64,000 nt of DNA from contig NZ_CP121446.1 of NCBI RefSeq assembly GCF_030643905.1, forward strand, positions 1,116,001 through 1,180,000, given 5' to 3'. The stretch is from Flavobacterium sp. IMCC34852. GTDB taxonomy: Bacteria; Bacteroidota; Bacteroidia; Flavobacteriales; Flavobacteriaceae. Positions 6,583-42,002 of the stretch are shown piece after piece. The position numbers were made by a program, and so were the translations under genes. Each line of letters starts with the position of its first letter. Within the stretch, counting starts at the first letter, position 1. The notes beneath the pieces were generated by a model. That model made no database searches. It was not told the origin of the DNA and worked only from the letters and a program-made list of their open reading frames with translations.

Positions 6583-6613
6583 TTTAATAAAAGTTAACAA
6601 ATATAGTATTTTC

Positions 6614-10519: not shown

Positions 10520-10577
10520 AGTAAACAATAAACGCAAATTTCAACAAAATAGTATTAAAAAGTAAAAAAAATTTTTT

Positions 10578-14108: not shown

Positions 14109-17048
14109 ATGATTAACACTACTTCTTGCAAGAAACTATTAGTTCTTCTCTTTTTTATGTTTTCCTATACCGGGAATGCTCAGGTGGCCGGAACTCATTT
14201 TACAATTACATTGGCGAATGTTACTTCATCTTCTAATACATTAGAATTTGATATTATGCTTACGATTGATGGTACCGGAGATGCTGCTTCAGGGGTTAAG
14301 TTATCCGCCATGTCAGCTGGGATTAATTACAATACGGCTATTGTTAACGGTGGGACTCTTACTTGTGCCTACATAGGTGGTAAAAGCGCTGCAATCGCAG
14401 GCTTGGTAAATACAACGACACCTAGTACAGTTACAGCTGGGCATATAAGAATTACGGCTTCACCATTAACTATAGATACTGCATTTGATGTTGTAAACGG
14501 GACGTATACTTTTGGTAGATATAGATTGACAAATACAGCAAGTTGGACAAGCAATTCTGATGCTCAATTATGGTTGCAACCTAATAATATTGGTAGGACC
14601 AATACCGCTGTGAATGCTTTTCCTTATGGAGCGACTTTGGGAGCGGCATCCTATTCTTACAGTACAACTGCCCCTGCTGGTTCTCCGGGAGTTAGTTTAG
14701 GCTATTCTCAAGCCACACCATTGTCGGCATTATTAAATGTATCAACTCAGGATTGTGCAACTTTGGGTACACCTGTAGTGACAGACGTAGATTGTTTTGG
14801 AGGAACTGATGGTGCTGCTACCATTACAATGTCAGCTTTAACGCCAAGTGTTTCTGCGATTAGTTATACTATAGATGGAGGTGCCTCGCAAAATGCCACA
14901 TTAGTGTCAGGAGCTTTCACCATTAATGGTTTAAGTGTTGGTACTTATTCTGTAGTTGTTTCAAATGCAGGTTGTCCTGATGTTACTGTGCCTGTAACGG
15001 TTTCGGGTCCAACAACTCCAATAACGAATGTCACTAACGAATCAGCTTGTGATAGCTACGTTTGGTCAGTAACCGGATTGACTTATACTATGAGTGGAAC
15101 TTACACGGGTACATCAACCAATTTAAATGGATGTACAGTCAATGAAACTTTGAATTTGACTATTACACCAAGTACTTCAAATACTACTACGGCTTCGGCT
15201 TGTGATACTTACACTTGGTCGGTAAACGGAGCGACTTATACGGCTTCGGGCACTTATACTTCGGTAGTAGATTGTCATACAGAAACTTTGAATTTGACTA
15301 TCACGCCAAGTACTTCAAATACCACTACGGCTTCGGCTTGTGACACTTATACATGGTCGGTAAACGGAGCAACCTACACGGCTTCGGGCACTTATACTTC
15401 GGTAGTAGATTGTCATACAGAAACTTTGAATTTAACTATCACGCCAAGCACTTCAAATACCACTACAGCTTCGGCTTGTGACACTTATACATGGTCGGTA
15501 AACGGAGCGACTTATACGGCTTCGGGCACTTATACTTCGGTAGTAGATTGTCATACAGAAACTTTGAATTTAACTATCACGCCAAGCACTTCAAACACCA
15601 CTACGGCTTCGGCTTGTGATACTTACACTTGGTCGGTAAACGGAGCGACTTATACGGCTTCGGGCACTTATACTTCGGTAGTAGATTGTCATACAGAAAC
15701 TTTGAATTTAACTATCACGCCAAGTACTTCAAATACCACTACGGCTTCGGCTTGTGACACTTACACTTGGTCGGTAAACGGAGCGACTTATACGGCTTCG
15801 GGTACATACACTTCGGTAGTAGATTGTCATACAGAAACTTTGAATTTAACTATCACGCCAAGCACTTCAAATACCACTACGGCTTCGGCTTGTGATACTT
15901 ACACTTGGTCGGTAAACGGCGCGACTTATACGGCTTCGGGTACATACACTTCGGTAGTAGATTGTCATACAGAAACTTTGAATTTGACTATCACGCCAAG
16001 TACTTCAAATACCACTACGGTTTCGGCTTGTGACACTTATACATGGTCGGTAAACGGAGCGACTTACACGGCTTCGGGCACTTATACTTCGGTAGTAGAT
16101 TGTCATACAGAAACTTTGAATTTGACTATTACACCAAGCACTTCAAATACCACTACGGCTTCTGCTTGTGATACTTACACTTGGTCGGTAAACGGAGCGA
16201 CTTATACGGCTTCGGGCACTTATACTTCGGTAGTAGATTGTCATACAGAAACTTTGAATTTGACTATTACACCAAGCACTTCAAATACCACTACGGCTTC
16301 TGCTTGTGATACTTATACATGGTCGGTAAACGGAGCGACTTATACGGCTTCGGGTACTTATACTTCGGTAGTAGATTGTCATACAGAAACTTTGAATTTG
16401 ACTATCACGCCAAGCACTTCAAATACCACTACGGCTTCGGCTTGTGACACTTATACATGGTCGGTAAACGGAGCGACTTATACGGCTTCGGGCACTTATA
16501 CTTCGGTAGTAGATTGTCATACAGAAACTTTGAATTTAACTATCAACTCATCGCCGACACCAACAGGTTCCTCAACTCAAACGGTATCGGTTAATGATTT
16601 AAACGATGCTACTTTAGAGGATTTAGTGGTGAGTCCAACAACTGTGATTTGGTATGCTTCTTTGGCTGATGCTCAAAATCAAGTGAATCCTTTAGCTATT
16701 ACAACAGTATTAGTAGATGGTGCAACTTATTATGCAGTTAACGTTTCTTTGGGTTGTGCCAGTGCGCCTTTTGCAGTGACGGTTACAGTGGCATTGGAGG
16801 TTGATGGTTTTGATGATGCGAACTTCAGAGTTTATCCTAATCCAACGTCTGGAATTGTTACCATAAAATATACTGAGAATATTAACGCTATAGTACTTAT
16901 GAATTTACTTGGGCAAGTTATTTTAGAGGAAAGACCTAACGTAACTGAAAGTTCAATGGATTTATCATCGTTGCCATCAGCAACTTATTTGATAAAAGTA
17001 ATTTCAAATGGAAAAGTTAAAGTTGTGAAATTGATTAAAAAAGACTAG
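14109..17048 (+). CDS. Repeat-rich T9SS type A surface protein with cohesin-like N-terminal domain
   Basis: 979 residues. A signal peptide (about 1-25, ending YTGNAQ) is followed by a ~190-residue domain (about 26-215) that is nearly the same as that of the protein at 23559. Its pattern of alternating strands around LEFDIMLTIDG and VKLSAMSAGINYN resembles cohesin-type jelly rolls; this is an inference. Next comes a SprB-like Ig segment, one diverged repeat, then ten nearly identical 46-residue repeats (about 362-812), each with two Cys, in the motifs SACDTYTWSV and VDCHTETLNL. A linker with Ig-like character leads to a type A sorting domain (VYPNPTSGIVTIKY to KVVKLIKKD). It is likely a surface stalk or adhesin; the function is unknown. 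Confidence 0.85.
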   Translation: MINTTSCKKLLVLLFFMFSYTGNAQVAGTHFTITLANVTSSSNTLEFDIMLTIDGTGDAASGVKLSAMSAGINYNTAIVNGGTLTCAYIGGKSAAIAGLVNTTTPSTVTAGHIRITASPLTIDTAFDVVNGTYTFGRYRLTNTASWTSNSDAQLWLQPNNIGRTNTAVNAFPYGATLGAASYSYSTTAPAGSPGVSLGYSQATPLSALLNVSTQDCATLGTPVVTDVDCFGGTDGAATITMSALTPSVSAISYTIDGGASQNATLVSGAFTINGLSVGTYSVVVSNAGCPDVTVPVTVSGPTTPITNVTNESACDSYVWSVTGLTYTMSGTYTGTSTNLNGCTVNETLNLTITPSTSNTTTASACDTYTWSVNGATYTASGTYTSVVDCHTETLNLTITPSTSNTTTASACDTYTWSVNGATYTASGTYTSVVDCHTETLNLTITPSTSNTTTASACDTYTWSVNGATYTASGTYTSVVDCHTETLNLTITPSTSNTTTASACDTYTWSVNGATYTASGTYTSVVDCHTETLNLTITPSTSNTTTASACDTYTWSVNGATYTASGTYTSVVDCHTETLNLTITPSTSNTTTASACDTYTWSVNGATYTASGTYTSVVDCHTETLNLTITPSTSNTTTVSACDTYTWSVNGATYTASGTYTSVVDCHTETLNLTITPSTSNTTTASACDTYTWSVNGATYTASGTYTSVVDCHTETLNLTITPSTSNTTTASACDTYTWSVNGATYTASGTYTSVVDCHTETLNLTITPSTSNTTTASACDTYTWSVNGATYTASGTYTSVVDCHTETLNLTINSSPTPTGSSTQTVSVNDLNDATLEDLVVSPTTVIWYASLADAQNQVNPLAITTVLVDGATYYAVNVSLGCASAPFAVTVTVALEVDGFDDANFRVYPNPTSGIVTIKYTENINAIVLMNLLGQVILEERPNVTESSMDLSSLPSATYLIKVISNGKVKVVKLIKKD
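14184..14728 (+). repeat. Direct repeat copy 1 (cohesin-like domain)
   Basis: This stretch encodes the N-terminal domain of the 14109 gene and has a near-identical partner in the same orientation at 23639-24183, about 9.45 kb away. Long runs of codons agree at the DNA level, so the duplication is fairly recent or kept similar by gene conversion. Confidence 0.8.
15192..16545 (+). repeat. Ten tandem 138-bp coding repeats
   Basis: Units start every 138 bases exactly (15192, 15330, 15468, 15606, 15744, 15882, 16020, 16158, 16296, 16434); the last is cut short near 16545. A diverged unit precedes them (15042-15191). Units differ mostly by silent changes; one replacement is Ala to Val at 16020. 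Such uniformity points to recent expansion and a copy number that can vary. Confidence 0.95.
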
Positions 17049-17084
17049 TAGTTATTTCAATTTGGGTTTTGAAATAAATGAAAG

Positions 17085-17114
17085 AAAACCACTAACGTTG
17101 TTAGTGGTTTTTTT
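17085..17114. terminator. Rho-independent terminator after the repeat protein
   Basis: CCACTAAC (17089-17096) pairs with GTTAGTGG (17100-17107) over a three-base loop, with A4 before and T7 after it. It separates the 14109 gene from the 17326-26654 pair. Confidence 0.9.
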
Positions 17115-17325
17115 ATGCAAAAAGGTTTCAAATTACTTTTAAATATTGCTGAAAACCTTTTTGATTTTAACAGTTATTTTTTTTGAAAATCCTTTATTTA
17201 TGAGCCTTTTAGAGGGGAAACGGCTTTTAAAATTCATTAAATTAGAAAGTCTTCTTTTTTTTTGTATAAGTATAAATAATAGTTTTACTTCCACAACAAC
17301 AATTTATTAACCAATTCAAATAATT

Positions 17326-20300
17326 ATGTTTATCAATTACTTTTTGAAAAGTTCATTGCTGCAAACATCGTCCTCGGACGGGAAGCACATTGGACAAAAA
17401 CCAAAGTCATTTGGTTTTGCATGGTTGCTTTTGATGCTCTTGTCTGCTGTAACCGGCATACAGGCTCAAACAACCATTATCAATCCGGCGACGGATGGAG
17501 GTTTTAATTTAGGTAGCACTTTTGCTGCCAATGGTTGGACAGTTGCCAATGAAGGCACAGGTGCAGTGAAATGGGCTGTGGGAACAGCAGTTTCTGATAC
17601 TACGCCAGGCACAACTCAAACGGCTAGTTCCATACCGATTACATCGTATACAGTAACGCTGTCTGCTTTAAACCAAAGCATTGCTATTGGTCAGTCTGTT
17701 TCCGGTGCAAATATTCAACCAAACACATATGTGTCGAATATTAGTGGTACTACTTTGACTTTAACATTACCAACAACCAACGCAACAGCACAAACTAATG
17801 TGTTGTTAACTTTTGGTGCGCTTGCTTCTAATATTAGTGGCAACTCTGCTTATTTGTCTTTAGACAATGGAGTGACGCATGCGACTAATATATCAGGAAT
17901 TAGAACGATTTATTTTTACAAAGATGTAGTGATTCCTGCAGGACATACTAATATTGCTTTGTCTTTTGATTGGAAGTCTGCTGCTAATACATGGCAGGTT
18001 TTTGTTGCGCCAACAACTGTAACACCGATTGGTTCAAATGTACAGTCTACTTTTCCAAATACATTGACAGGAGCAACTCCTATTATTTATTCTAATACCA
18101 ATACCACAACGCAATCATCATTTGGATTTATTCCTGCCAGTTTCGCAGGAACTACTGCCAGAATTATTTTCATGTGGTCAAATGGAAATGGTGGTGGAAC
18201 AAATCCTCCATTAGCAGTTGATAATATTTCATTAGTTTCAAGAGCTGGTGGGCAAACTTTAACATCAGTTTCATCTGGTCTTTTTACAAGTCCAAGTACT
18301 TGGGATTTAGGATATGTACCTTCGCCTTCAGATGACGTGGTTATCTCAGCAGGTCATACAGTGGATATCAATGAGAAAATCACTTTAGGCGCAAGAGATT
18401 TAGCTATCGCTGGTTCTGGTGCAGTGGCTCAATTTGGTTTCTTTTCTGACCAGTTTACAGTAAGTAATGACTTATTTATTAGTGGGTCAGGTGCCAGATT
18501 TAATGTTTACCAACCTACCAATGTTGTTACACCGGCTGGTAACGGTAGATTATTAAAGGTTGGTCATGATATCAGTTTTACTAGTGGTGGTCGTTTAGAT
18601 ATTTCTTTTGGTACTACAGGTGCTGGTGTTGGAGAATTAAATTTAAATGGTTCTACATTACAAACTATTTCAACGGATGCTGGTAGCTTTTTAGGAGGAA
18701 CTACTAAAGCAAATGGTACAACCAATACTTTTGGAATTATCAATCAATTGACAGTTACTAATACTAGTACTGCAACACCTAATATCGATTGGCAAGTAAA
18801 CAATGCCAGAATTAGAAGTAAATTAACCTTAACCAGTGGAAGAGTTGCTCTTGGTAGTAACAAAATCATCCTTGGGAATTATGGTGCTTTGAGTACCAAT
18901 GTTGTTTGTAGTCTTGGAACCGGTTTCATTGGTGGAACTGTGGCGAGATGGTACACTACTTCAGCTAATCCATCATCGGGAACTATTGATGCAGGATTGG
19001 ATTATAACAATGCGAATGTTTTATTTCCTATCATAAATGCTAATGGTCAAAACAGATGGGCTTCTATTCTTTCTCCGGCTTCAGGTACTGTTGCAGGGGA
19101 ATTAGCAATCACTTATGCAGACGCTAACACAATGAGCGCTGTATCTATTGTTGACGGAATTACCATTGGAACTCGTTATGACGGAAACTGGACTATTACT
19201 ACACCGGATAGTAGAGTTGATACAACTCTTAGTACACCGGCAGCATTTACTTATACTAACGCAGGAACTGCTTTTGCTTTAGGATTTTATGCTACTGGTG
19301 CTTTTGCCACTAATGATGGTAGCACAAGAATATTATACGGTGCAGCTGCGGCTGGCGGAACACATATCAACGGGACAACAGCTCCTTTTGCTGCAAGATC
19401 CGGACTTACATTAGCTAACATTACGGCGAATGGTCCAATGTATGTTGGTGGAGCTACTACTTCTGTACAAGGCGGAACAACAAAAACATCTACCGGTTCA
19501 GGAGATTGGAATACTGCCGGGACTTGGACTCCAAGTGGGGTTCCTGCTTGTGGTGATATTGTTACCATTGCTTCAGGACATACTGTAACAGTTAATGCTA
19601 CTGCTTCTGCAGCCGGTGTAACTATTAATGCAGGAGGTACTTTGGTTAACGCCGGAGGTACTTTGACTGTTGGTTGTACAAACAACAATGCTATTTTTAC
19701 CAACTTTGGTACTAGTACTGTTTCAGGTGGAACTTTAAGAGTAAACGGTGGTGTTTATCACAGAGCCGGAAGTACTTTTAATCATACTGGCGGTGATGTT
19801 ACTATTGATAGTAATGATGCAGGTAATGCTTCAACCAGTGTTGGTCAAGGAGGTTCTTCTTTAAAATTAGATACTCCTAATTTAAATTTAACCGGAGGTA
19901 CTATTACTATTGTAGATCCGCTTATCAATAATGTTATTGCTACTAGTGCTACTTCAGTTACAAATTTTACTATGACAACTTTTGCCAGTACTTTTGCAAA
20001 GCCATTAGCGGCTGATGCTCCATCAGGTTCAACTGTTTTGAGTATGACTAATTTTAACCGTGCCAATACTTTTTCAATAGGACAAGTTGTTAGTGGTACA
20101 GGTATAGCTCCTGGTACAACTATTACAGCACTTACAGTGCCTCAAACTTCTGTAGCCCCAATATCAATTACTTTATCACAGGGAACAACTGCAACTATTC
20201 TCACAGGTGCAACCATAGATTTCAGTGCTATGAATAATGGTAGTAGTGTAATTTGTGTTCCAACATCTACGGCCAATTGGTTCAATATTGCAGTAGGTCA

Positions 20301-23300
20301 GATTGTTACCGGTAACGGAATTCCAGCCGGAACTACTGTTACAGGAGCAGGTTCAGGATTTGCAGATTCTGCTTATGCCATATTCTTGTCAAATCCGGTA
20401 ACTGGTTTAGCTACTTCACCAATTATTGCTGCTGAGACAATTACATTCTCTGGGGCTTCACCTAACTGTTCATCGATTATTTTACCTGCTGCCAATCCAT
20501 TAATTAGTGTGGGTCAGGCGGTTTCAGGAACAGGTATTGCTCCGGGAACTACAGTTACTAGTATTGATGCTGTTGGTACTCAATCTAAAATAGGTTTATC
20601 TCTTCCATGTACGGGAGCTATGGTAGCACCGGTAGCATTGAATTTTTATGCCGGCAATTTGAGTAGTTTTGCTGTTGCTTATAATGCAACGACAAATTAT
20701 GTGGCAGGATTAAACCATACGTTACAAATTGGTGACGGTGTTTCAACTGATAAAGCTGCGGTAACTACCAATGGTTTCCTTTGTAATTTTATTCAAGGAG
20801 GAGGAATGTTGTCTTTGGGCAACTTAACAGTTAATGCACTTGACGGAGCAGATAGATTTTTCAATGTAACCAATGTATTAAGTGTACAAAATGCATTGAA
20901 TATTACTTCAGGCAGTGTTTTCAAAAAGACAAATACTTCAGGAGGAATGTTCTTTGGAGGAAACATAACCAATAATGGTTCAATGTTTATGGCTGCAAAT
21001 ACAATTACAAACTTAGCCAATGGTGCTTTGGGAGCTACTACTCTTCCTCAAACCATTTCAGGTTCAGGTAATTTTTACAACAACTTAACTACTGCGGCAT
21101 CAACAGGTTCGTTTGCCGGATTAACCATTAATAATACAAGTAGTGCTGGTGTTACTATTAGCATGCTGAATTTCAGAGTAACCTCTTCACTTACATTGAA
21201 TTCAGGGATTGTTCATACCTCTGCTACTTATCCTTTATATCATGGTTTAGCTGATTTAAGTTCAGGTGCTATTCTTTCAGGGACATTTAGCGATACTTCT
21301 TTTATCGATGGTCCTTACAACAAATCTTTTGCGACAAATTCAACAAGTGCATCTTTTCAACTATTTCCTGTTGGGAAAACCAGTTATACTCCTGTTTGGG
21401 TTGGTATAACTGCTGGAGCCTCTATTACTGCTGAGGCTTATACTTCAAATGCAGGGACAACATCTGTAAATGCCAGTAATTTAAGTGCTACCAACTGGAG
21501 AGTTACCAGAGAAGGTGCTTTAGGATCTATGTCTGATTATAAAGTTCAATTAGGTCATCCTTCAATTGGTGCTAATAATATTATTGTTCAGGCGCCAATT
21601 GCAAATGGAACTTATGATAATACATTTGGAAATGCGATGGTTTACACTGCCGGTACATTAAATACCATTGCGGCACCAACTGCAATATCTGGAGCGGGTT
21701 ATACCTCTTCCTATTTTGCCTATGCTACAACACCAAACTGTACAACTTTCAATCCTGGTAATACAATAGCAGATTTATCAACTATAACTAATATTGTAAT
21801 TCAAAATAGTTCATCTACAGGAATTGTGAATGGTTCGGCTAATGTTACTTTACAAGCTACTGCTTCGCCATTGATTGTTGCAGGGTTAACAGTTACAGGT
21901 AACGGTATTCAAGCAGGAACGACAGTAGTTTCGGTTAGTGGTACAGCTTTAGTATTATCTCAACCAGCTACTGCATCTAGTGCCGGACAAACAACTTTGA
22001 CCTTTTCAACGGTTCAAAATCCATCTTCACTTTGTGGATCACAATTGGTTCGTTTAAGTCTTCAAAATTCAACTACTGCAACCGGTATTACTTACCAATG
22101 GCAAAGTTCAACTGATGGAGGAACGACTTATGTAAATATTAGTGGTGCTACGGCGGCTACTTATGTAGGAGCTCCAACTCAAAACACATATTACCGTTGT
22201 AATGTAACTTGTACTTTTGGTCCTTCTACTGTAGCTTCAACTCCTGTTCAGGTAACACTTAGCAGTGCTGTTGATACAACTACACCGGGAACAACTTGTA
22301 CGGCAAGTACTCCGGTTAACTTAGAAGCAACTGCTGCTTCAGGAACTATCACATGGTATGCTGCTGCAACAGGTGGATCACCTTTGGCAACCGGTAGTCC
22401 TTTCACACCGTCACCAGCAACTACAACGACCTATTATGCAGCTACTGAATCAACTTCAACTTACACCGTTGGAAAATCGTTGACAGGGACTTCTACTTCA
22501 ACCTCTAATTTTACAGGTATTGTTTTCAATACTTCTAAAAACATAATCTTAAACTCGGTTAAAGTTTATCCAAGACAAACGGCTGGTGCTCTTGATGCCG
22601 GTGCTCAAATGACCATCAAATTATTTAAAGATGGTGTTCAAGTTCCGGGTACAGATGCAGTAACATTTGTTCCTACAACGAATACGGGTACTATATCAGC
22701 TTCGTTTTCGAATACAGTAAACTTAAACTATAACATTCCTGCCGGTAACGGATATACGCTTTTAGTTACTTCAGGATTAAGTGCTACCAATATGTTGGCC
22801 AGAGTTTCGCCTGGAGTTGCAACACTTCCGGCTGGAGGAGGTTCAGTAACTGTTACCCTTGGGGCTTCTAGTTTTGATACAACTAGCAATTCAGAGAATA
22901 ATAACTTCTTTGATTTGAATGTTACTGAAGTTTGTTCTTCACCTAGAGTTGCTGTTGAGGCAACAGTAGGTTGTACTAAAAACTTGAAATTATTCATCGA
23001 AGGATACTACATTGGCGGTGGTCAAATGACTCCAGTTAAAGCTAATGAAGGTGTTGGTACAAGTACTACTGATGTTGATGATGTTACTGTAGAATTAAGA
23101 GACGCTTCAACTTATGCAGTGGTATCTTCTGCAAGTGCAGTGTTGAAAACTGACGGAACTGTTGCTGCTAAATTAGTAGCTCCAGCTGGAAATTATTTTA
23201 TTGCAGTAAAACACAGAAATGCAATTCAAACTTGGAGTGCTGCTGCTGAGGCTTTTGGTACTTCTACTGCTACTTATGATTTCTCAACTGCAGCTAACAA

Positions 23301-23538
23301 AGCTTATGGTAGCAATATGAAAAACTTAGGTTCTGGAGTGTTTGGATTCTATTCTGGGGATATCAATCAAGATGAAAGTATTGATGTGGGAGATTTCCCT
23401 GCTTTATTTAGTGATAATGACAACTTTATTTCTGGATATTTTAATACAGACTTAAACGGAGACGGAACGGTTGACGTTGGTGATTTCCCAATATTATTCC
23501 TGAATTCAGATAATTTTATCTTTTCTAATCACCCATAA
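17326..23538 (+). CDS. Giant surface protein ending in a dockerin-like calcium-binding module
   Basis: 2070 residues. The signal peptide has an unusually long n-region (~33 residues) before the core AWLLLMLLSAVTGIQAQ. The body is beta-rich: five copies of a VGQxVSGTGIxPGTTV-type motif (coded near 17680, 20070, 20290, 20500 and 21870), beta-helix-like Gly/Thr/Asn-rich stretches, an Ig-like segment (TYQWQSSTDGGTTYVNISG) and a second Ig-like segment (22260-22440). The C-terminus has no T9SS sorting domain. It ends with two dockerin-type calcium loops, D2012-I-N-Q-D-E-S-I-D-V-G-D2023 and D2042-L-N-G-D-G-T-V-D-V-G-D2053. It is followed after 20 bases by a paralogue of the upstream cohesin-like protein. 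I infer, not show, that the loops bind a cohesin-like partner. Confidence 0.8.
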   Translation: MFINYFLKSSLLQTSSSDGKHIGQKPKSFGFAWLLLMLLSAVTGIQAQTTIINPATDGGFNLGSTFAANGWTVANEGTGAVKWAVGTAVSDTTPGTTQTASSIPITSYTVTLSALNQSIAIGQSVSGANIQPNTYVSNISGTTLTLTLPTTNATAQTNVLLTFGALASNISGNSAYLSLDNGVTHATNISGIRTIYFYKDVVIPAGHTNIALSFDWKSAANTWQVFVAPTTVTPIGSNVQSTFPNTLTGATPIIYSNTNTTTQSSFGFIPASFAGTTARIIFMWSNGNGGGTNPPLAVDNISLVSRAGGQTLTSVSSGLFTSPSTWDLGYVPSPSDDVVISAGHTVDINEKITLGARDLAIAGSGAVAQFGFFSDQFTVSNDLFISGSGARFNVYQPTNVVTPAGNGRLLKVGHDISFTSGGRLDISFGTTGAGVGELNLNGSTLQTISTDAGSFLGGTTKANGTTNTFGIINQLTVTNTSTATPNIDWQVNNARIRSKLTLTSGRVALGSNKIILGNYGALSTNVVCSLGTGFIGGTVARWYTTSANPSSGTIDAGLDYNNANVLFPIINANGQNRWASILSPASGTVAGELAITYADANTMSAVSIVDGITIGTRYDGNWTITTPDSRVDTTLSTPAAFTYTNAGTAFALGFYATGAFATNDGSTRILYGAAAAGGTHINGTTAPFAARSGLTLANITANGPMYVGGATTSVQGGTTKTSTGSGDWNTAGTWTPSGVPACGDIVTIASGHTVTVNATASAAGVTINAGGTLVNAGGTLTVGCTNNNAIFTNFGTSTVSGGTLRVNGGVYHRAGSTFNHTGGDVTIDSNDAGNASTSVGQGGSSLKLDTPNLNLTGGTITIVDPLINNVIATSATSVTNFTMTTFASTFAKPLAADAPSGSTVLSMTNFNRANTFSIGQVVSGTGIAPGTTITALTVPQTSVAPISITLSQGTTATILTGATIDFSAMNNGSSVICVPTSTANWFNIAVGQIVTGNGIPAGTTVTGAGSGFADSAYAIFLSNPVTGLATSPIIAAETITFSGASPNCSSIILPAANPLISVGQAVSGTGIAPGTTVTSIDAVGTQSKIGLSLPCTGAMVAPVALNFYAGNLSSFAVAYNATTNYVAGLNHTLQIGDGVSTDKAAVTTNGFLCNFIQGGGMLSLGNLTVNALDGADRFFNVTNVLSVQNALNITSGSVFKKTNTSGGMFFGGNITNNGSMFMAANTITNLANGALGATTLPQTISGSGNFYNNLTTAASTGSFAGLTINNTSSAGVTISMLNFRVTSSLTLNSGIVHTSATYPLYHGLADLSSGAILSGTFSDTSFIDGPYNKSFATNSTSASFQLFPVGKTSYTPVWVGITAGASITAEAYTSNAGTTSVNASNLSATNWRVTREGALGSMSDYKVQLGHPSIGANNIIVQAPIANGTYDNTFGNAMVYTAGTLNTIAAPTAISGAGYTSSYFAYATTPNCTTFNPGNTIADLSTITNIVIQNSSSTGIVNGSANVTLQATASPLIVAGLTVTGNGIQAGTTVVSVSGTALVLSQPATASSAGQTTLTFSTVQNPSSLCGSQLVRLSLQNSTTATGITYQWQSSTDGGTTYVNISGATAATYVGAPTQNTYYRCNVTCTFGPSTVASTPVQVTLSSAVDTTTPGTTCTASTPVNLEATAASGTITWYAAATGGSPLATGSPFTPSPATTTTYYAATESTSTYTVGKSLTGTSTSTSNFTGIVFNTSKNIILNSVKVYPRQTAGALDAGAQMTIKLFKDGVQVPGTDAVTFVPTTNTGTISASFSNTVNLNYNIPAGNGYTLLVTSGLSATNMLARVSPGVATLPAGGGSVTVTLGASSFDTTSNSENNNFFDLNVTEVCSSPRVAVEATVGCTKNLKLFIEGYYIGGGQMTPVKANEGVGTSTTDVDDVTVELRDASTYAVVSSASAVLKTDGTVAAKLVAPAGNYFIAVKHRNAIQTWSAAAEAFGTSTATYDFSTAANKAYGSNMKNLGSGVFGFYSGDINQDESIDVGDFPALFSDNDNFISGYFNTDLNGDGTVDVGDFPILFLNSDNFIFSNHP

Positions 23539-23558
23539 TTAATTTAAATTCAAAAGAA

Positions 23559-26500
23559 ATGAAAATTATAAAAAATAATTTAGGCAAGAGCTTATTGCTT
23601 CTTTGCTTAATGATGATTTCCTTAACAGGATTTTCTCAAGTTGCCGGGACTCACTTTACAGTGAGTCTGGCAAACGTAACTTCTACTTCCACGACTATGG
23701 AATTTGATGTTATGCTTACGGTAGATGGAACAGGAGCAGCTGCTGCTGGGGTTAAATTATCTGCTATGTCAGCAGGGATTAATTACAATACAGCTATTGT
23801 AAATGGTGGTACAGTTTCTTGTGCCTATATTGGTGGAAAAAGTGCTGCAATTGCAGGATTAATCAATGCTGCTTCACCAAGCACTGTTACGCCAGGGCAT
23901 ATCAGAATTACGGCTTCTCCCTTAACAATAGATACTGCATTTGATGTTGTTAACGGAACGTATACTTTTGGTAGATACCGATTGACAAATACCGCGAGTT
24001 GGACTCAGAATTCTAATGCTCAATTGTGGTTACAACCCAATAATATCGGTAAAACCAATACGGCTGTAAATGCTTTCCCATTTGGCGCAACTCTAGGAGC
24101 AGCATCATACTCATATTCAACTACTGCTCCGGCAGGTACGCCTGGAGTTAGTTTAGTGTATACTCAAGCCAATACTTTGAGCCATGATTTAAATGCTAAT
24201 TGTGGGATTACTCTACAACCGGTTAATCCTACTATTTGTAAGGCAACCGGTGGAACTGCTTCCGTTTCTGTTACTGCTACAGGAGCTACAGGAGCATTAT
24301 ACCAATGGTATACACAAACAGCTACAGGAACTACTTGGACTGCTTTGGCAAATAATGCAAATTATTCAGGTACTACAACACCTACGTTAAATATAACAAG
24401 GACTACAGCTTCTGTTCCTGCAGTAGGAACAAAATACAGAGTTGTTATCAATGGTGGAATTTGTAATAATGTAACTTCTGATACTGTTGTTCTACAAGAA
24501 CAAACAGTTTTGTCTAAAGCTACGGCTGTTTCAGCAAAGTCATCTACCAATGCTACTTTGTATCCGGCAAACACAACTTGTGTAGGAACTACTGTGAACT
24601 TAACATTGGCTGCCGGAAGTATCGGAAACATTCAATGGCAATCTTCTACAGATGGAATTACTTATAATAACGTTGGCGGTGTAATTGCTCAAACTGCTTT
24701 GTCAGCGGTTAATCCTGCGTTAACACTTAGTTCAGGAGTTTTAACACAAGATACTTGGTTCAGAGTTGTCGCTTCAAATGGTATTTGTTCTTCGGTTAAT
24801 GGAGTTGCTACTAAAATTACCGTAAGTTCTCCTGCAATTGCGGGTACCATTAGTGGTGGAGATGTTACTGTTTGTGCTTATTTAGCATCAGGGACACCGC
24901 TTGATTTGGCAGGAAACCTTATTCCATTACCTTACACTAATAGTACAGTGCTTACATTAAATGGAAACAACGGTACAGTAGTTTGGCAAAAATCAATCAA
25001 CTATACTTCAGCTTCTCCAACTTGGTCAACTGTAACTACAGGTGTTTCAGGTAATCAATTAACAGCAGCTAATTTAACTGTTGATACATGGTACAGAGCT
25101 TTGGTGTCAAATGGAGCATGTACTGCTACATCACCGGTTGTTAAGATAACTGTTAATAAAGCGGCAAAAGCCGGAGCAGTTACAGCAACCTCAAATAGTG
25201 TAGTTACAACAGGTGTTTGTACAGGAGGCGATATTACTTTTACTTCTGCTCCTTATGTTGGAACCTCAAATCAATGGGAAGTTTCAACTACTTCAACTAC
25301 CACAGGTTTTACTCCTGTAAGTGGTGCAAACGGATTAGTATTTACAATGAATGATGTAGCTTATCCGCCACTTTCTAAGTTCTATGTTAGAAATGTAGTA
25401 TACAGCGGATCTTGTACAATGGCAAGAAGTGCTGTTAAAACTATCACCGTAAATCCAATTACAGTTGCTGGAACAGTAACCGGAGGTGGTGTTGTTTGTG
25501 CAAATGGTGGCGGAACGTTGAAACTTGCAGGTCAAGTAGGAAAAGTACAATGGGAATATTCTACAGATGGTGTAAACTTTTTAACAGTACCTTATTGGAA
25601 AACAGTTTCATTTGTACCAACATTCTTCAACCCTAACAATACTACAGCGTTTACTACGCCGTCTTCATCAGGTACAGCAACAAGTTACATAGTATCAAAC
25701 CTTACGGCTAATACCTATTTCAGAGCTAGAGTAACTAGCGGTTCATGTGCTACAGAATACAGTAATGTTGTTCAATATACCATTGGAACTAACGCTGTAG
25801 CAGGAACTATTTCTGCAGGAAATTCTACAATATGTCCGTCTACAGGAACTACTTTAACTTTATCTGGTTCTACCGGAGCTATTCAATGGCAAAAAGCAAG
25901 TGTTTCTGCTACAACCGGATTACCTGGAACTTTTGCTAATATAAACGGACAAACCAATACAACTTTAGCAACTGGTAACTTGACGGCTTCAACGGCTTAT
26001 CAGGCAGTAGTTACAATTGGGGCATGTTCTACAGTAACTACAGCTTATTTTATTGTAAATGTTGTTGCAAAACCAGTTGCCAAGCCAGTTACAGCCAATG
26101 TAACTTCTCCAGCGGGTTCTCTAGCGGCGCCATTATGTACAACTGATGCTTCAAAAGTATTGACTATTGGTGCTGGTTATGTTGGTGCTATTCAATGGCA
26201 AACATCAACTACATCAACAACAACAGGATTTAGTGATATTTCTGGTGAAACCGCAACAACTTATACTATTGCTAATCCGGCAGTAGGAGCAAACTATTAC
26301 AGAGCTTCATTTACCAACAGTTGTGGAACTGTGGTTTACAGTGCTGCGGTAACAGTTTATTACCAAGCTTGTAAAACTACTACGCCTGAGGCACGTGTTG
26401 AGAAATCTCCTTTTGCAGTAGTAGCTTATCCAAATCCTTACAGTGAAAACTTCAATTTAAGTTTGACTACTTCAAGCGAAGAGAGTGTAAGTGTAATGGT

Positions 26501-26654
26501 TTATGATATGACAGGAAAATTGGTTGAACAACATGAAGTTAGTGCAGCAAATATTGCGGAGCTTCAAGTTGGAAACAGATATCCATCAGGAATTTATAAT
26601 GTAATTATCACACAAGGAGCCGAAGTTAAAACCCTTCGCGTTGTGAAAAGATAG
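23559..26654 (+). CDS. T9SS type A surface protein with cohesin-like N-terminal domain and Ig-like repeats
   Basis: 1031 residues. A signal peptide (to LTGFSQ) is followed by the ~190-residue cohesin-like domain shared with the 14109 gene product. The middle differs fully from that paralogue: about seven Ig-like segments, with the recurring pattern IQWQxSxxxxT, YRAxVxxGxC and AGTIxGG (for example at 24620-24660 and 25540-25570), as in Bacteroidetes Ig-type repeats. The C-terminus is a type A sorting domain (YPNPYSENFNLSLTTSS to KTLRVVKR). It sits 20 bases after the dockerin-like gene, so the two are probably one operon. Likely displayed on the surface; its binding partner is not known. Confidence 0.85.
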   Translation: MKIIKNNLGKSLLLLCLMMISLTGFSQVAGTHFTVSLANVTSTSTTMEFDVMLTVDGTGAAAAGVKLSAMSAGINYNTAIVNGGTVSCAYIGGKSAAIAGLINAASPSTVTPGHIRITASPLTIDTAFDVVNGTYTFGRYRLTNTASWTQNSNAQLWLQPNNIGKTNTAVNAFPFGATLGAASYSYSTTAPAGTPGVSLVYTQANTLSHDLNANCGITLQPVNPTICKATGGTASVSVTATGATGALYQWYTQTATGTTWTALANNANYSGTTTPTLNITRTTASVPAVGTKYRVVINGGICNNVTSDTVVLQEQTVLSKATAVSAKSSTNATLYPANTTCVGTTVNLTLAAGSIGNIQWQSSTDGITYNNVGGVIAQTALSAVNPALTLSSGVLTQDTWFRVVASNGICSSVNGVATKITVSSPAIAGTISGGDVTVCAYLASGTPLDLAGNLIPLPYTNSTVLTLNGNNGTVVWQKSINYTSASPTWSTVTTGVSGNQLTAANLTVDTWYRALVSNGACTATSPVVKITVNKAAKAGAVTATSNSVVTTGVCTGGDITFTSAPYVGTSNQWEVSTTSTTTGFTPVSGANGLVFTMNDVAYPPLSKFYVRNVVYSGSCTMARSAVKTITVNPITVAGTVTGGGVVCANGGGTLKLAGQVGKVQWEYSTDGVNFLTVPYWKTVSFVPTFFNPNNTTAFTTPSSSGTATSYIVSNLTANTYFRARVTSGSCATEYSNVVQYTIGTNAVAGTISAGNSTICPSTGTTLTLSGSTGAIQWQKASVSATTGLPGTFANINGQTNTTLATGNLTASTAYQAVVTIGACSTVTTAYFIVNVVAKPVAKPVTANVTSPAGSLAAPLCTTDASKVLTIGAGYVGAIQWQTSTTSTTTGFSDISGETATTYTIANPAVGANYYRASFTNSCGTVVYSAAVTVYYQACKTTTPEARVEKSPFAVVAYPNPYSENFNLSLTTSSEESVSVMVYDMTGKLVEQHEVSAANIAELQVGNRYPSGIYNVIITQGAEVKTLRVVKR
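23639..24183 (+). repeat. Direct repeat copy 2 (cohesin-like domain)
   Basis: Partner of 14184-14728, in the same orientation and the same reading frame within its gene. Recombination between the copies would remove the dockerin-like gene and join the two outer genes in frame. Confidence 0.8.
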
Positions 26655-26847: not shown

Positions 26848-28437
26848 ATGAATTGTCTTGCTAAAATAAATAGCCTCTTTTATTTGTTTTTTTTCATTGG
26901 ATTTTTCCATACCACTATAAGTGCGCAATCATCTGAAAACAAGCATCACTTAACAGGTGATATCGAAAGATTAATCAATTCAAACCCTGATCAAGCGTTA
27001 AAAGTTGCCCAATATTTATTGAGTAAAACCGGTATTTCAAATAAGGAAAAGGCGCATGTCAATTTTTTAATTTCTAAGGCTTATAAAGTAAAAGGAGACT
27101 ACAGCAGTGCTTTAAATTTTCTCTATGAAGAAAAGAATTACGAAGAGTATTTGGATGAAGAGGAAAAAATAGGAATCGAAATTAATAAAGTCATACTGCT
27201 AAGAGAGTTGTCTTTAGATAAGCAAGCAAAAAAAATATTGACTAATTTGGAAAATGAGGTTAATAATGTGACCAATGACAAATTAAAGCCCTATTACGAA
27301 ATTTCAATTGACATAGAAAAAGCAAGGTATTTTTTGAAAGAAGGTCAAGTTGATAAAGGAATCAACTTGCTAAAATCACAAGAAGCTTTTTTGACTAAAA
27401 TGGCAAGCGACTTCAAAGAGTTAGAGTTGTATTTTGACATAACGCTGGGACATTTGTTTTTGGAAAAAAAGGATTTAGCAGCTTCTAAAAAATATTTTGA
27501 TTCAGCTATAGCTATGATTAATGAGCAAAATGGGGACAATGCCTATTCTAAAATTGATGCTCTTTATGGTTTGGCGGGTATTTCTTTTTACAAAAAAGAG
27601 CACCAAGATGTCATTAAATTAACCGAAGAGGCTTTGGTTCAAGCGAAAAAGTTGGGTAACCTTTTCTGGCAAGTTAAAATCATGCAGTTACAAAGTTCCA
27701 GTTATTTGGCATTAAATGATTTGACCAATTATAAGGCAATTAATATCAAATTTTTTGAAGCCCAAAGCGAAACGGAAGCCCAAGAACAAGAAGCTATTAA
27801 TACCACATATAATCTTGTTTCCGATGAATATGCCGATGAGTATTCTAAAGACAAGTCAAACTATATTAATTTCTTGTACGTCATCTCAGCCTTGTTTTTT
27901 ATTACTATCCTTATTTGTCTTTTATTTTGGCAAAAAGTAATGCAACGAAAGAAAGGTTTAGATGAGATTATTAGTTATATCGAAATTACAAGAAGCAATC
28001 TTTTAGAAAGTTTTACCGTAACAGATAAAAAAAACGAGCCTAAAAAGAATGTCATTCTCAAGGAAACAGAAGAGCAAATTTTAAATAAACTCAAGAAATT
28101 TGAAAGTTCAAAACGTTTTATCAATAAAGATATTTCACTAGCGGTTTTAGCGGGTCAACTAGACTCAAATACCAAATACTTGTCGGAAATTATAAACACC
28201 CATTACAATGTTAATTTTAATACTTATATCAATAAATTGAGGATTAATTACATTATTGAAAAACTCAAGACTGACCCTAATTTTATCAATTATAAGATTA
28301 GTTATTTGGCCGAAAACTGCGGTTTTTCATCCCATAGCAGCTTTGCCACGGTATTTAAATCGATAACCGGAATATCACCGGTTAAGTTTATAGAATTATT
28401 AAATCAAGAAAAAGAAAATAATCTGTTAGAAGAGTAA
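26848..28437 (+). CDS. Membrane-spanning TPR regulator with AraC-type DNA-binding domain
   Basis: 529 residues. A signal-like hydrophobic N-terminus (LFYLFFFIGFFHTTISAQ) is followed by TPR-like helical repeats (about 60-320), one transmembrane segment (about 331-353, INFLYVISALFFITILICLLFW), a short coiled-coil and an AraC/HTH_18 domain (about 410-520) with the typical second helix-turn-helix ISYLAENCGFSSHSSFATVF. The topology implies a sensor part outside the cytoplasm and a DNA-binding part inside. It is directly followed (TAA then ATG) by a shorter protein of similar plan. Position between two adhesin clusters suggests it may control one or both; this is inference. Confidence 0.85.
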   Translation: MNCLAKINSLFYLFFFIGFFHTTISAQSSENKHHLTGDIERLINSNPDQALKVAQYLLSKTGISNKEKAHVNFLISKAYKVKGDYSSALNFLYEEKNYEEYLDEEEKIGIEINKVILLRELSLDKQAKKILTNLENEVNNVTNDKLKPYYEISIDIEKARYFLKEGQVDKGINLLKSQEAFLTKMASDFKELELYFDITLGHLFLEKKDLAASKKYFDSAIAMINEQNGDNAYSKIDALYGLAGISFYKKEHQDVIKLTEEALVQAKKLGNLFWQVKIMQLQSSSYLALNDLTNYKAINIKFFEAQSETEAQEQEAINTTYNLVSDEYADEYSKDKSNYINFLYVISALFFITILICLLFWQKVMQRKKGLDEIISYIEITRSNLLESFTVTDKKNEPKKNVILKETEEQILNKLKKFESSKRFINKDISLAVLAGQLDSNTKYLSEIINTHYNVNFNTYINKLRINYIIEKLKTDPNFINYKISYLAENCGFSSHSSFATVFKSITGISPVKFIELLNQEKENNLLEE

Positions 28438-29598
28438 ATGAATACTAAGAAGAATATATACTATATGCTGATATTACTTGTTGCAAAACTTGTAATTGCT
28501 GATACTTTGAGTTCTCAAAACCTCAAAAGTATAGATAGTATCCTCAAAGTAGCTTCTACAGAAATTTATGCAAATCCGGATAATGTAATCAAGTTAGGGC
28601 ACAAGATTATTAAGATGGCCGGAGACAATGTTGATTATAAAATTAAAGCATACAAGATTATTTCAGATGCTTATTCTTCCCGACGTGATTATGAAAAGTC
28701 ATTAGAGTACGTTATTAAAGCCAATGAATTATTGGATGAAACCAATGATGAACTGCTTAAAATAACCATTGTCAATAAAATGGGTATTCAATACCACCAA
28801 TTAAAGGTTTATGACAAAGCTATTCAATATTTAGACCAAGCCGAACAGTTAATAGGGGAGTATCCTGTTAAAGATTCTATTCATACTGAATTGGGTAAAA
28901 ACTATATCGTAAGAGGATTTATTTACAAAGAAAAGCTTAGCTGCGCCATTGCCATTGCCTTTTTAGACAGAGGGATTGCCGAGTTAAAAAAATCAAATAA
29001 AGAATCAGATTTATCCAAAATTAGTATCGCGACCTATAACAAAGGAAATTGTTATTTGTTGTTAAAGAATAACAAATCAGCGCTAGAAAATTTTCAGATA
29101 GCTGTACAAATGGCCAAAAAAGTAAATGCTAAAAGTTTACAAGCCTTTGCCTTAAAGGGTTCAGCTAAGGTATTTACTCTCGAAGGCAGAAACATCGAGG
29201 CCATCAAAGCACTTGATGAAGCTTTATATCTTTCTTCTGAAGTTAATGATTTAATCCTGAATCAAGAGATTTACATGGGATTATCTGAGAACTATTTAGC
29301 TATTAATGATTGGAATCAATTCAAAACCAATCAACAAAAATTTATCGAAGTCCAAAAGCAAATTAAAGATCGTGAACGTTTATCCGTAGGTGAGTCACTA
29401 GGGGTTAAAGAAGCCGAATCAAAAGCAAATCGTGACGAACTTTCCAATAAATTTTATTATTTACTACTTGTTTTATTTTTTGTTTTAACTCTTATTGTTT
29501 TATTTTTCTACGTAATAATTAAACGTAAAAACAAAGAAATTGAAGCCATAAAAAGCCAAATTTACATTTTACAAAACAAGAAAGGCAAAGAGGCTTAA
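28438..29598 (+). CDS. TPR membrane protein lacking the DNA-binding domain
   Basis: 386 residues, starting on the base after the stop of the upstream regulator. It has a signal-like N-terminus (YYMLILLVAKLVIADTLSSQ), TPR-like repeats, a transmembrane segment near 337-360 (FYYLLLVLFFVLTLIVLFFYVI) and a short charged coiled-coil tail (KRKNKEIEAIKSQIYILQNK), then stops. The layout matches the upstream regulator minus its AraC domain. No remnant of an HTH domain is visible in the following DNA. It may be a sensor or partner that modulates the upstream protein. The exact function is unknown. Confidence 0.8.
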   Translation: MNTKKNIYYMLILLVAKLVIADTLSSQNLKSIDSILKVASTEIYANPDNVIKLGHKIIKMAGDNVDYKIKAYKIISDAYSSRRDYEKSLEYVIKANELLDETNDELLKITIVNKMGIQYHQLKVYDKAIQYLDQAEQLIGEYPVKDSIHTELGKNYIVRGFIYKEKLSCAIAIAFLDRGIAELKKSNKESDLSKISIATYNKGNCYLLLKNNKSALENFQIAVQMAKKVNAKSLQAFALKGSAKVFTLEGRNIEAIKALDEALYLSSEVNDLILNQEIYMGLSENYLAINDWNQFKTNQQKFIEVQKQIKDRERLSVGESLGVKEAESKANRDELSNKFYYLLLVLFFVLTLIVLFFYVIIKRKNKEIEAIKSQIYILQNKKGKEA

Positions 29599-30114: not shown

Positions 30115-33100
30115 ATGCAGAAAAATTATTCCTTTTTTGAAACTATATTGCCTAAACCACTACATGGTTTTTTTCAAAAAAATAATGGTAATGTAGACTA
30201 CTTTATTAATAAAATAGTACTTCAGAAATTTTTCGTTATGGTATTTCTGATTGTAGCCAATTTTGGTTACAGCCAAACAGAACATTTCGAAAGTGGTATA
30301 CCGGCTTCATGGCTTGTCAAAGGAAGACAAGGCGGAACAGAAACGGTATTTGCCAATAACTGGGTTCATACAGCTGCCGGGGGATATTTAGGTACCGGAG
30401 GCGCAACGGTGAATCCGTCATTGAATAACACACAAAATACTACTGCGGAGTATTTTATGATTACCTCTCAATACATCACTCCGGCTAATGGAGAGATTCG
30501 TTTCATGACCAAGCAAGGGAGTTTTTCTAACAGAGGTACTACCTATCAGGTGAGAATCTCCACCGGTAATCAGGCTGATCTTACCAGTTATAATGTTACT
30601 TTGGCTTCATGGACTGAGGCTCAATTAAATGTTTCTGCAACTACTTATGAAGAAAAGATTGTTTCACTCGGAGCGGTTGGAGCAGGAATTCCGGTTAATA
30701 TTGCTTTTGTTGCCATCACTAATCAACTAGGAACCACAGCAACCATAGGAGATACTTGGTTTGTTGATAGGGTTAGGGTCATGTCAAGTTGCGATCCAGT
30801 GGCAACTCCAACAATAGTTCCCGGAATTGATGGTGCCAGTATATCATGGACACATCCTACTGCAACATCATTCGGAGTAGAAGTTGTCCCGGCAGGAGCA
30901 GGGCATGGTGCTACCGGAATCCCGGTAACCGGAACAACTTATAATCCCACAGGATTAAACCCTGCAACAAGCTATGATTTTTACATTATTGCCAATTGTG
31001 ACTCAGAAACGTCAAGTGCTTGGGCAGGTCCTTTTTCTTTTACCACTTCTGTAGTTGGTTTAACTTGTCCGTCGGCTATCGTAATTCCACCGGATGTTAT
31101 AACTACACCATATACTCTGATAACCAATTTGGATCAGTATTATGACGGGACTACATATGTACCGATGAATAGCCAAGGGATGAGTTGTCAACCAGCAAAT
31201 CAAACTCAGAACCTATTATTAGGAAACCACCTTTATCTTACTTACACGCCAACTGCTTCAGGGTTAATCAATATTACTCAGACCACCAATACAGCTTCAG
31301 GCGGTGGTGGTAATAATTGTTATAATGCACTTTCGAGTGTTTTCGTTTTTGATGGTTGCGCCGGTGTTGGAACTTCTGCTGGTTGTTTGGCTGCACTTTA
31401 CACCACCAACCCTAATACTCCTTATCAAATTCCGAATTTCTATGCCCAAGCAGGTCAAACTTATATATTCGTAATCTCGTCACCTTATCAACACACTAAT
31501 CCGGGAGCAGGTATTTGTTTTACCTTTAGTATTAGTGGTTCAACCTGTCCTTCACCAACTCAGCCGTCATTATCTATAAGCGATTTGTTGCAAACTACCG
31601 CGACAGCTTCTTGGGATAATGTTCAGAATTTGGTAAGTGCATGGGAATATTTGGTTTTACCAGCTACTGATCCGGCTCCAACAGCGGCTCAATCAGGAAT
31701 TGCTACCAATACTAATGTAAACAATCCGATATCGAGTCTTACTCCCGGAATGGATTATAAATTATATGTTCGTTCCGTTTGTAATGGAACTCCGGGGTCT
31801 TGGTCAGCGCCAAGAACTTTCACTACACTTTGTAATCCTTTACCATTACCTTATTATACCGGATTTAACAATGCTACCTCAAGCGTTAATACTCCGGAAC
31901 CATGTTGGACTTCTTTGAATTTGAATAATGACGAAAGATTCTTTTGGTTTGGTCCAAATGCTTTTAGCGAGCCTGTTGCGAAATTAAGAGTTTCAGAGTC
32001 GACAAATAATAACGATATGTTGGTTACACCAACCTTTCACTTTGATGGTGTTACACAAAAAAGACTCCGTTTCAGATACAATTTTTATGGAAACTGGGGG
32101 CTAATTGTAAACAACCCAACAGGCGGACCTGGTTCATTTGAAATAAGAATGTCAACGACTGGTGTTGGTCCAAATACTTTTACTACAACCGTAGTGCCTT
32201 TGGCCCAATATACAACGGCATACAATTTTATTGAAATGATTGTTCCGTTACCTAATATTGAGGCAGATGTTAATATTGCTTGGGTAGTGCCACCGGGTGC
32301 TCTGCAAGCAGGATCATGGTTGTATATTGATGATGTTTATATAGAAGATTTACCGGCTTGTTCGGAGCCGGCTTATCCGGTGGTTACTCCGGGAACTTTA
32401 GATACAGATTCAGTCGAAATTTCTTGGACAAATGGTTACGCTAATACGCAATGGCAATTGGTGGCACAGCCTTTAGGAACAGGTGTGCCTACGGAACCAT
32501 TTGTTCCCGGTGCTGTGGTGAATATTGTGAATACTAATCCGTTTACTATAACCGGATTAAATCCTTCTACACAATATGAGTTCTACATGAGAGCTTATTG
32601 TTCTGCTTCTGAGCAAAGTATTTGGGTAGGGCCTATTAACTTTAATACTTTATGTATTGAACAACCTACACCCTATTATGAAAGTTATAATAGCAATGAC
32701 CCTAATACGAAGAAATTCTGTTGGTCTGTAAACAATGCTAACGGAGACCCCGCAAAATGGATAATCGGTACAACAGATGCCAACATACGACCACAGCCAA
32801 TCACCTTTTTTGATCCTTTTGTTTCTTATAACGATTGGTTAATCAGTGTACCGGTTAATGCCGTTGGTCTTAAAAGGTTGCGTTTTAACTATAGGGTAAC
32901 TGCCGGAATTGGTCCGATTGCATTGTATCCGAGAGGGAACTTTGAAGTATTGATGTCTTCAACGCCTGATTTTGCTACTTACACTACTTTGATTCCGTTG
33001 CACGATTTTACCAATGACAGTTTTCAGGAAGATTCAGTTTTATTCACAGGAACCGGAACGACTTACATCGCTTTCCGTATGCCTCCTAATATGCCTAATC

Positions 33101-38937: not shown

Positions 38938-38992
38938 TCAAATGAGTATAAACAGTTTGTTTGTGTTTACCAACAAACTATTATTAAATAAA

Positions 38993-41946: not shown

Positions 41947-41980
41947 ATAGCTAATCTCGATGAAAATTGAGATTGGCTAT
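41947..41980 (+). promoter_or_regulatory. Intercistronic hairpin before the second giant adhesin
   Basis: ATAGCTAATCTC (41947-41958) pairs with GAGATTGGCTAT (41969-41980) with one G-T wobble over a ten-base loop. It lies in the 128-base gap between the OmpA gene and the adhesin and has no T-run, so it is more likely an mRNA-processing or stability element than a terminator. Confidence 0.5.
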
Positions 41981-42002
41981 TGTGCATAAATATGATGATT
42001 CA

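Follow-up and report, generated by a model that had tools for sequence, protein, structure and literature searches.

How could a protein of 2070 residues, lacking any known sorting domain of the type IX secretion system (T9SS), be displayed by a bacterium in which the genes on either side encode proteins that do carry such domains? The question is raised by three open reading frames (ORFs) in a window of 64,000 nucleotides, the whole stretch of DNA analysed here, from Flavobacterium sp. IMCC34852 (contig NZ_CP121446.1, positions 1,116,001 to 1,180,000; the host genome comprises 3.17 Mb in one contig). These ORFs, all on the + strand, encode P1 (14109-17048, 979 aa), P2 (17326-23538, 2070 aa) and P3 (23559-26654, 1031 aa), with intergenic gaps of 277 bp between P1 and P2 and 20 bp between P2 and P3. 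An earlier note, made from the sequence alone, had read the trio as a cohesin/dockerin-like system, and this reading was supported by our analysis. We consider it likely that P1 and P3 present cohesins on the cell surface and that P2 is their cargo, held through an X-dockerin (an immunoglobulin-like (Ig-like) X module followed by a dockerin), the whole constituting a T9SS-linked display pair. The plug-and-socket pairing of cohesin and dockerin is best known from cellulose-degrading Clostridia.

P1 and P3 were found to share an N-terminal domain and to end in type A T9SS tails, as the earlier note had observed. The sole BLAST match between the two proteins at E<=0.01 joined residues 16-223 of P1 to residues 18-222 of P3 at 80% identity (166/208, E 8e-103), and the shared domain is present in two copies in the genome. 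In P1 it follows a signal peptide recognised by eye and spans residues 24-215 (14178-14753, +); the counterpart in P3, assigned on its 80% identity to the P1 domain, lies at 23637-24209 (+). T9SS cargo is recognised by a C-terminal sorting domain of type A, B or C, and that of P1 (16830-17045, +; PF18962 44.6 bits, 1.7e-11; TIGR04183 46.7 bits, 2.4e-12) and that of P3 (26427-26651, +; PF18962 44.5 bits, 2e-11; TIGR04183 43.1 bits, 3.2e-11) are both type A, with all matches above cut-off. P1 also contains a tandem repeat whose 138-bp (46-aa) unit occurs 10.2 times (15144-16545, +; 95% matches) and which perhaps forms a stalk. The copy number of this repeat may differ among strains.

A search of the shared domain against PF00963 (cohesin), suggested by the earlier note, returned no match at E<=10 for P1 or P3 in the Pfam scan, and the NCBIfam scan did not identify a cohesin either. 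A profile of the window cohesin also had no match among PDB sequences, hence a fold model of the P1 domain was needed. With this model, rows 1-8 of the Foldseek results were cohesin entries without exception, and VIA rows 1-39 comprised cohesins, scaffoldin complexes and, once (2o4e), an interaction module of glycoside hydrolase family 84 (GH84) from Clostridium perfringens. Sequence identity to the aligned cohesins was about 6-15%. The model thus predicts the cohesin jelly-roll fold, in agreement with what the note had supposed. PF18962 is listed by Pfam annotation for 28/30 and 20/23 cohesin proteins in two homologue sets, and our own tail model, seeded partly from these same proteins, assigned a type A tail to 47 of 52. 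One close homologue of a P0030-type cohesin protein, P0160, originates from a eukaryote gene set and is probably bacterial contamination.

P2 differs from its neighbours: in keeping with the note, neither Pfam nor NCBIfam showed a sorting domain of any T9SS type (A, B or C) in it at E<=10. It begins with a signal peptide recognised by eye; its Pfam domains are G8 and Ig_7 only, and no carbohydrate-active enzyme was recognised. The two dockerin-type loops described at its end are present as DINQDESIDVGD (residues 2012-2023, 23359-23394, +) and DLNGDGTVDVGD (residues 2042-2053, 23449-23484, +), each a 12-residue calcium loop read from the sequence with its register taken from the alignment. They belong to a dockerin of residues 2010-2070 (23353-23535, +), which reaches the final residue of P2 and was assigned from homologues, a PDB profile search and Foldseek. 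An Ig-like X module of about 120 residues (residues ~1885-2005, 22978-23340, +), assigned from an AlphaFold2 (AF2) model and its Foldseek matches to X-dockerin chains, lies immediately N-terminal to this terminal dockerin, the arrangement of an X-dockerin dyad. When the end of P2 was searched against Dockerin_1 (PF00404), as had also been suggested, a match was indeed placed at residues 2011-2056, but it was weak (E 0.39, 11.4 bits) and below the cut-off of 22.9.

The C-terminal module of P2 (its last ~190 residues) recurs in 227 proteins at E<=0.001, of which the 120 listed were analysed. Among the matches listed, PF00404 is annotated in 8/120, one homologue (P0058) had already been named a 'dockerin type I domain-containing protein' by NCBI, and the cargo fused to the module varies widely, including reprolysin-like metallopeptidases, zinc carboxypeptidases, FG-GAP and fibronectin type III proteins. 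A 13-row profile of the module, compared with PDB sequences, retrieved at the top two 'serine protease' chains with two dockerin-like stretches, followed mostly by cellulosomal dockerins (4fl4_A, 2vn5_B, 2vn6_B, 2mte_A and 1daq_A; E 1e-4 to 1e-3). Dockerin-bearing chains made up the majority of the first 11 rows, and EF-hand proteins were intermixed lower in the list. Both the 227 proteins and the mostly dockerin-bearing PDB rows indicate that the loops of P2 are beyond chance. The host genome itself encodes one full copy of the module; a second match is partial (E 0.03) and has a stop inside.

The AF2 model of the 190-residue module had a mean predicted local distance difference test score (pLDDT) of 69, the beta part being good, with blocks at 72-92 in the X module part (first ~110 residues), and the dockerin part poor, with 10-residue blocks at 37-66; the dockerin half is accordingly a low-confidence model. 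Foldseek ranked Ole e 1-type allergens first and second, and X-dockerins of type II complexes (4wi0_B, 4u3s_B, 4fl4_C and 2b59_B) third, fourth, fifth and seventh, over alignments of 151-199 columns with low template modelling scores (TM-scores). Model helices at positions 141-153 and 171-182, predicted with low confidence, follow the two 12-residue loops, one after each, as in a type I dockerin. That the loops form a dockerin-like module, here situated behind an X module, was corroborated by both the PDB profile search and Foldseek.

In classical dockerins, the cohesin is recognised by positions 10 and 11 of the calcium loops; in type I dockerins, the duplication of these positions provides a dual binding mode. 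In an alignment of all 121 module matches (92 non-redundant), agreement between the repeats of one protein was 0.85 at position 10 and 0.84 at position 11, against 0.16 and 0.20, respectively, between proteins; for both positions jointly it was 0.84 within a protein, against a shuffled maximum of 0.30. P2 has VG at positions 10-11 of loop 1 and again of loop 2. The repeats showed no agreement at positions 2, 4, 8, 15 and 19, so the likeness of the loops reflects more than plain recent duplication. The X-dockerins at loci L008, L016, L017 and L010 have long, non-canonical repeats that are near-identical between the copies in one protein, the L008 kind differing from the kinds in the other three, and possibly constitute separate specificity classes.

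When the phylum was sampled with an X-dockerin profile of 18 rows, matches were obtained in 57/392 Bacteroidota genomes and 44/178 genera, with counts per genome being minima as at most seven candidates were scored in each. A first cohesin profile had matched the host genome alone among 146 genomes of the order, hence other cohesins were reached via the X-dockerin neighbourhoods. Sixty of these, from 52/57 X-dockerin genomes, were selected by us; those left out were G348, G389, G395 and G443 (weak matches) and the host genome. A T9SS-tailed gene, recognised by tail models seeded partly with neighbour tails, lay within 300 bp downstream of 47/74 X-dockerin ORFs of at least 200 aa, compared with 22 of the 359 other ORFs serving as controls, and on either side of 52/74. 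A tail model free of neighbour seeds, built only from the two listed cohesin homologue sets, gave 24/74 downstream and 28/74 on either side, against 10/359 (P 4e-13). Thirteen of the 60 loci were without a T9SS-tailed neighbour.

The 55 neighbour genes were reduced to 49 for comparison by leaving out six long or additional ones; PF18962 was detected in 34/49 (Pfam, E<=1) and TIGR04183 in 33/49 (NCBIfam, E<=0.01). By single linkage, the N-terminal domains of 37 fell into two groups, of 23 and 14. Profile comparison related the window cohesin to the group of 14 (P 1.7e-10) and the group of 23 (P 5.7e-7), and the groups to each other (P 8.4e-7). The lowest P from reversed or column-shuffled decoys was 0.11 for the group of 14 and 0.14 for the group of 23, and P was 0.2 or more where the X-dockerin profile was compared. 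Moreover, the group-of-14 profile, free of window sequence, recovered the P1 domain at E 3.6e-5. For the 12 neighbours outside both groups, cohesin identity is unproven, save for the gene at L069:8068-8877, right upstream of an X-dockerin gene, which combines a PF00963 match (33.8 bits, cut-off 24.1) with a T9SS tail. Sub-threshold cohesin matches were recorded for the neighbours at L085 and L123 (E 0.012 and 0.016).

The association also holds at the level of whole genomes, in statistics that ignore phylogeny. One neighbour-group profile matched 32 genomes, 31 of them with an X-dockerin, and the other 29, of which 25 had one. Joined, the two profiles matched 46/57 X-dockerin genomes and 5/335 others (Fisher P 1.6e-43). 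Of the 57, 34 had supplied seeds for the profiles; the other 23 had supplied none, and 12 of these were matched (P 9e-13). PorU (E<=1e-20) was found in 56/57 X-dockerin genomes and 224/335 others (P 2e-8), the exception, G348, having a weak X-dockerin match (E 4.8e-5). Several scaffold-like proteins combine or multiply the modules. For instance, the metagenomic protein P0026 unites a cohesin-like domain and an X-dockerin within 620 aa, L122 encodes three cohesin-like domains in tandem, and L124 two with a T9SS tail. The L122 class is related to the 14-row group (P 6.5e-18) but shows no direct link to the window cohesin (P 0.09). L125 (G333:C61) has two cohesin-like matches, the first of them weak, together with an X-dockerin-like stretch between them and a T9SS tail. 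The open frames at L125, L126 and L127, which run to 1800-2100 residues, end in a T9SS tail and hold X-dockerin-like stretches internally, are possible hub proteins.

The cohesin search of genome records yielded eight loci (L025-L032), with an X-dockerin gene immediately upstream of the cohesin gene in four of these (L026, L027, L030 and L032), L027 having two such pairs in tandem. L025 and L031 each hold the counterpart of P1 as their cohesin, behind murF, and the contig stops soon after, within it. At L028 the gene upstream of the cohesin encodes, by eye, a T9SS-tailed protein of another sort, and an X-dockerin is absent from the contig of L029. The latter two loci (CALPIE020000167.1 and CALPIE020000052.1) come from a public metagenome-assembled genome labelled Bifidobacterium breve, yet carry Flavobacterium-type genes, and G521, a genome of the window's genus, has contigs matching them, with open frames equal in length (197 and 1400 aa). 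G521 harbours seven X-dockerin and two cohesin matches. In the six of its X-dockerins that were read, loop 1 was always of the form IDG[STA]D, as expected if all fit one receptor. Among the 61 genomes sampled from the genus, two were matched by the cohesin profile, both with an X-dockerin, and five by the X-dockerin profile, three of these weakly or in cut form. Overall, the observation is real, its reading as a display pair of the cohesin/X-dockerin type is well supported, and the pair is not confined to the window.

We propose that the trio is one case of a display route in part of the T9SS-bearing Bacteroidota, in which an X-dockerin replaces the T9SS tail on the cargo. P1 and P3 would pass the inner membrane via Sec, and their type A C-terminal signals would then direct them to the T9SS for export, with processing by PorU, leaving one cohesin outermost on each. 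P2 would likewise pass the inner membrane via Sec, and would be held by its C-terminal X-dockerin, most likely by calcium-dependent contact between a single dockerin and a single cohesin, in two alternative orientations; a dockerin with two alike faces would permit two binding orientations, which may be helpful to a long surface protein. Export of P2 would most likely be brought about by a cohesin protein. The X-dockerin may, as a tentative suggestion, be a secretion ticket in trans, such that P2 docks on a cohesin protein in the periplasm and the complex, already assembled, leaves by the T9SS. Such co-export with P1 or P3, though itself a tentative reading, is favoured over the rather doubtful possibility of the X-dockerin acting as its own signal, and over a route as yet unknown. 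If the trans ticket is true, a single exported socket could carry out and display many proteins, as in G521. The control reported in the excerpted text of a T9SS translocon study, a signal-sequence-mCherry fusion without a C-terminal domain (PMC10994853), is consistent with a P2-like protein needing help to leave the cell.

The alternative that survives best, albeit an unlikely one, is that the X-dockerin is an unrecognised T9SS signal, P2 being exported alone and caught outside by the neighbouring cohesin proteins. According to the excerpted text of one source, a type C signal joined types A and B only lately (PMC10202324). In addition, the module lies at the extreme C-terminus, as sorting domains do (its match ends on the final residue in 80/121 and at most six residues from the end in 120/121), it takes the place of the type A tail (0/120 X-dockerin proteins by our own tail model, among the matches listed), and PorU accompanies it in 56/57 genomes. 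However, dockerins too are usually terminal, X-dockerins appear at Foldseek ranks 3-5 and 7, and the X-dockerin-like stretch of L125 is internal to a protein with a T9SS tail of its own.

Less probable still, and in our view improbable, is that the cohesin-like and dockerin-like modules are present without binding, each being a surface domain in its own right that has a different ligand. Peer et al. 2009 reportedly described cohesin- and dockerin-like modules outside cellulosomes and cellulose degradation, and some such cohesin-like modules are without a shown partner. Across the 49 adjacent pairs, dockerin class did follow cohesin class (rho 0.51, Mantel p 0.0005); the X module was coupled to cohesin class equally, rendering this coupling uninformative about the interface, and no interface-specific covariation was seen among these pairs. 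Against autonomous domains stand the neighbourhoods and co-occurrence across the phylum, the likeness of the two loops of one protein at positions 10 and 11, and the natural cohesin-like and X-dockerin protein P0026. That P1, P2 and P3 are unrelated surface proteins, adjacent through clustering of repeat-rich surface genes and bearing chance EF-hand-like motifs, is highly improbable given the identical gene order in named Flavobacterium records and the genome counts above (46/57 against 5/335, and 12/23 without seed genomes), notwithstanding further large proteins in the region (30115-38937 and 41967-49394) and the T9SS-tailed neighbours of 22/359 control ORFs.

In the surrounding region, P1 is preceded by gldJ and murF, and upstream lie the divergent genes porV (T9SS shuttle protein, 5383-6600, -; NF033710 1e-159) and porU (T9SS sortase, 6614-10537, -; NF033707 1383 bits). 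The earlier note had recorded neither the porV-porU-gldJ genes nor the X module and the wide conservation of the pair. A terminator-like hairpin of 15 pairs, a match to consensus only, is situated 3' of P3 (26683-26716, +), in a region with 13 such hairpins against 8.8 expected. Right after the trio, two genes (26848-29598) encode products of 529 aa, which near its C-terminus matches regulators of transcription such as PocR and ChbR, and 386 aa, which matches TPR/FimS models, all below cut-offs; the pair are possible regulators. A 2940-aa repeat protein (30115-38937) has an end that resembles, by eye, a type B (CHU_C-like) tail; on the 3' side lie a gene of the PorP/SprF family (38942-39940) and an OmpA-type gene (39952-41874) that matches CHU_0125/PorE models below their cut-offs.

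If the pairing is real, cohesin/X-dockerin display would occur in about a fifth of the sampled PorU-bearing Bacteroidota genomes (56/280), with both modules scoring under or close to profile cut-offs. It would account for the surface display of large proteins without T9SS signals, including adhesin-like proteins and reprolysin-like and carboxypeptidase-like proteases, pose the question of whether the T9SS exports complexes, and supply docking pairs for surface display.

As regards precedent, excerpts of earlier studies state that Bacteroidetes-affiliated genomes lack cohesins, dockerins or scaffoldins (PMC5831590), describe the machineries of two cellulolytic Bacteroidetes as free of dockerin or scaffoldin proteins (PMC6247017), and list Pfam dockerins in Bacteroides, Alistipes and Bacteroidales single-cell genomes, with a cohesin only in a Christensenellales one (PMC10266427). 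In the excerpts of the open-licence PubMed Central (PMC) literature, no description of a cohesin/X-dockerin pair in Bacteroidota was found, although one may exist in preprints or in papers behind a subscription. What appears new is a T9SS-anchored variant, biochemically unproven, that is spread over the Bacteroidota and uses X-dockerins instead of secretion signals.

The trio resembles the clostridial type II cohesin/X-dockerin system (for example PDB 2b59, 4fl4 and 4wi0) in the predicted cohesin fold of P1, in the Ig-like X module of P2 with a C-terminal two-loop dockerin behind it, and in the duplication of loop positions 10 and 11. It differs in the low sequence identity of the cohesins aligned with the P1 model, in window domains that fall short of Pfam cut-offs, in its putative anchoring by the T9SS rather than by Gram-positive wall domains, and in having one cohesin per window protein and a cargo without a recognised carbohydrate-active enzyme. 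A cellulosome, by comparison, comprises a multi-cohesin scaffoldin and dockerin-bearing glycoside hydrolases, whereas P1 and P3 have a single cohesin-like domain each.

The nearest precedent is a putative cellulosome-like complex inferred in Ca. Stygibacter of the Cloacimonadota, for which the excerpted text describes signal-peptide proteins with C-terminal dockerins and a cohesin protein whose conserved domain at the C-terminus serves surface attachment, its authors citing a T9SS review (PMC8542988). That complex belongs to another phylum and is built on a single scaffoldin of 3,755 aa, in which tandem cohesins are combined with carbohydrate-binding modules (CBM2/CBM3), and the excerpt contains no mention of an X module, gene pairing or a wider spread. 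Compared with T9SS cargo bearing type A, B or C domains, as set out in the excerpt of PMC10202324, P1 and P3 are by sequence ordinary type A proteins, whereas P2 bears no signal of any of these types and would depend on a partner for its display.

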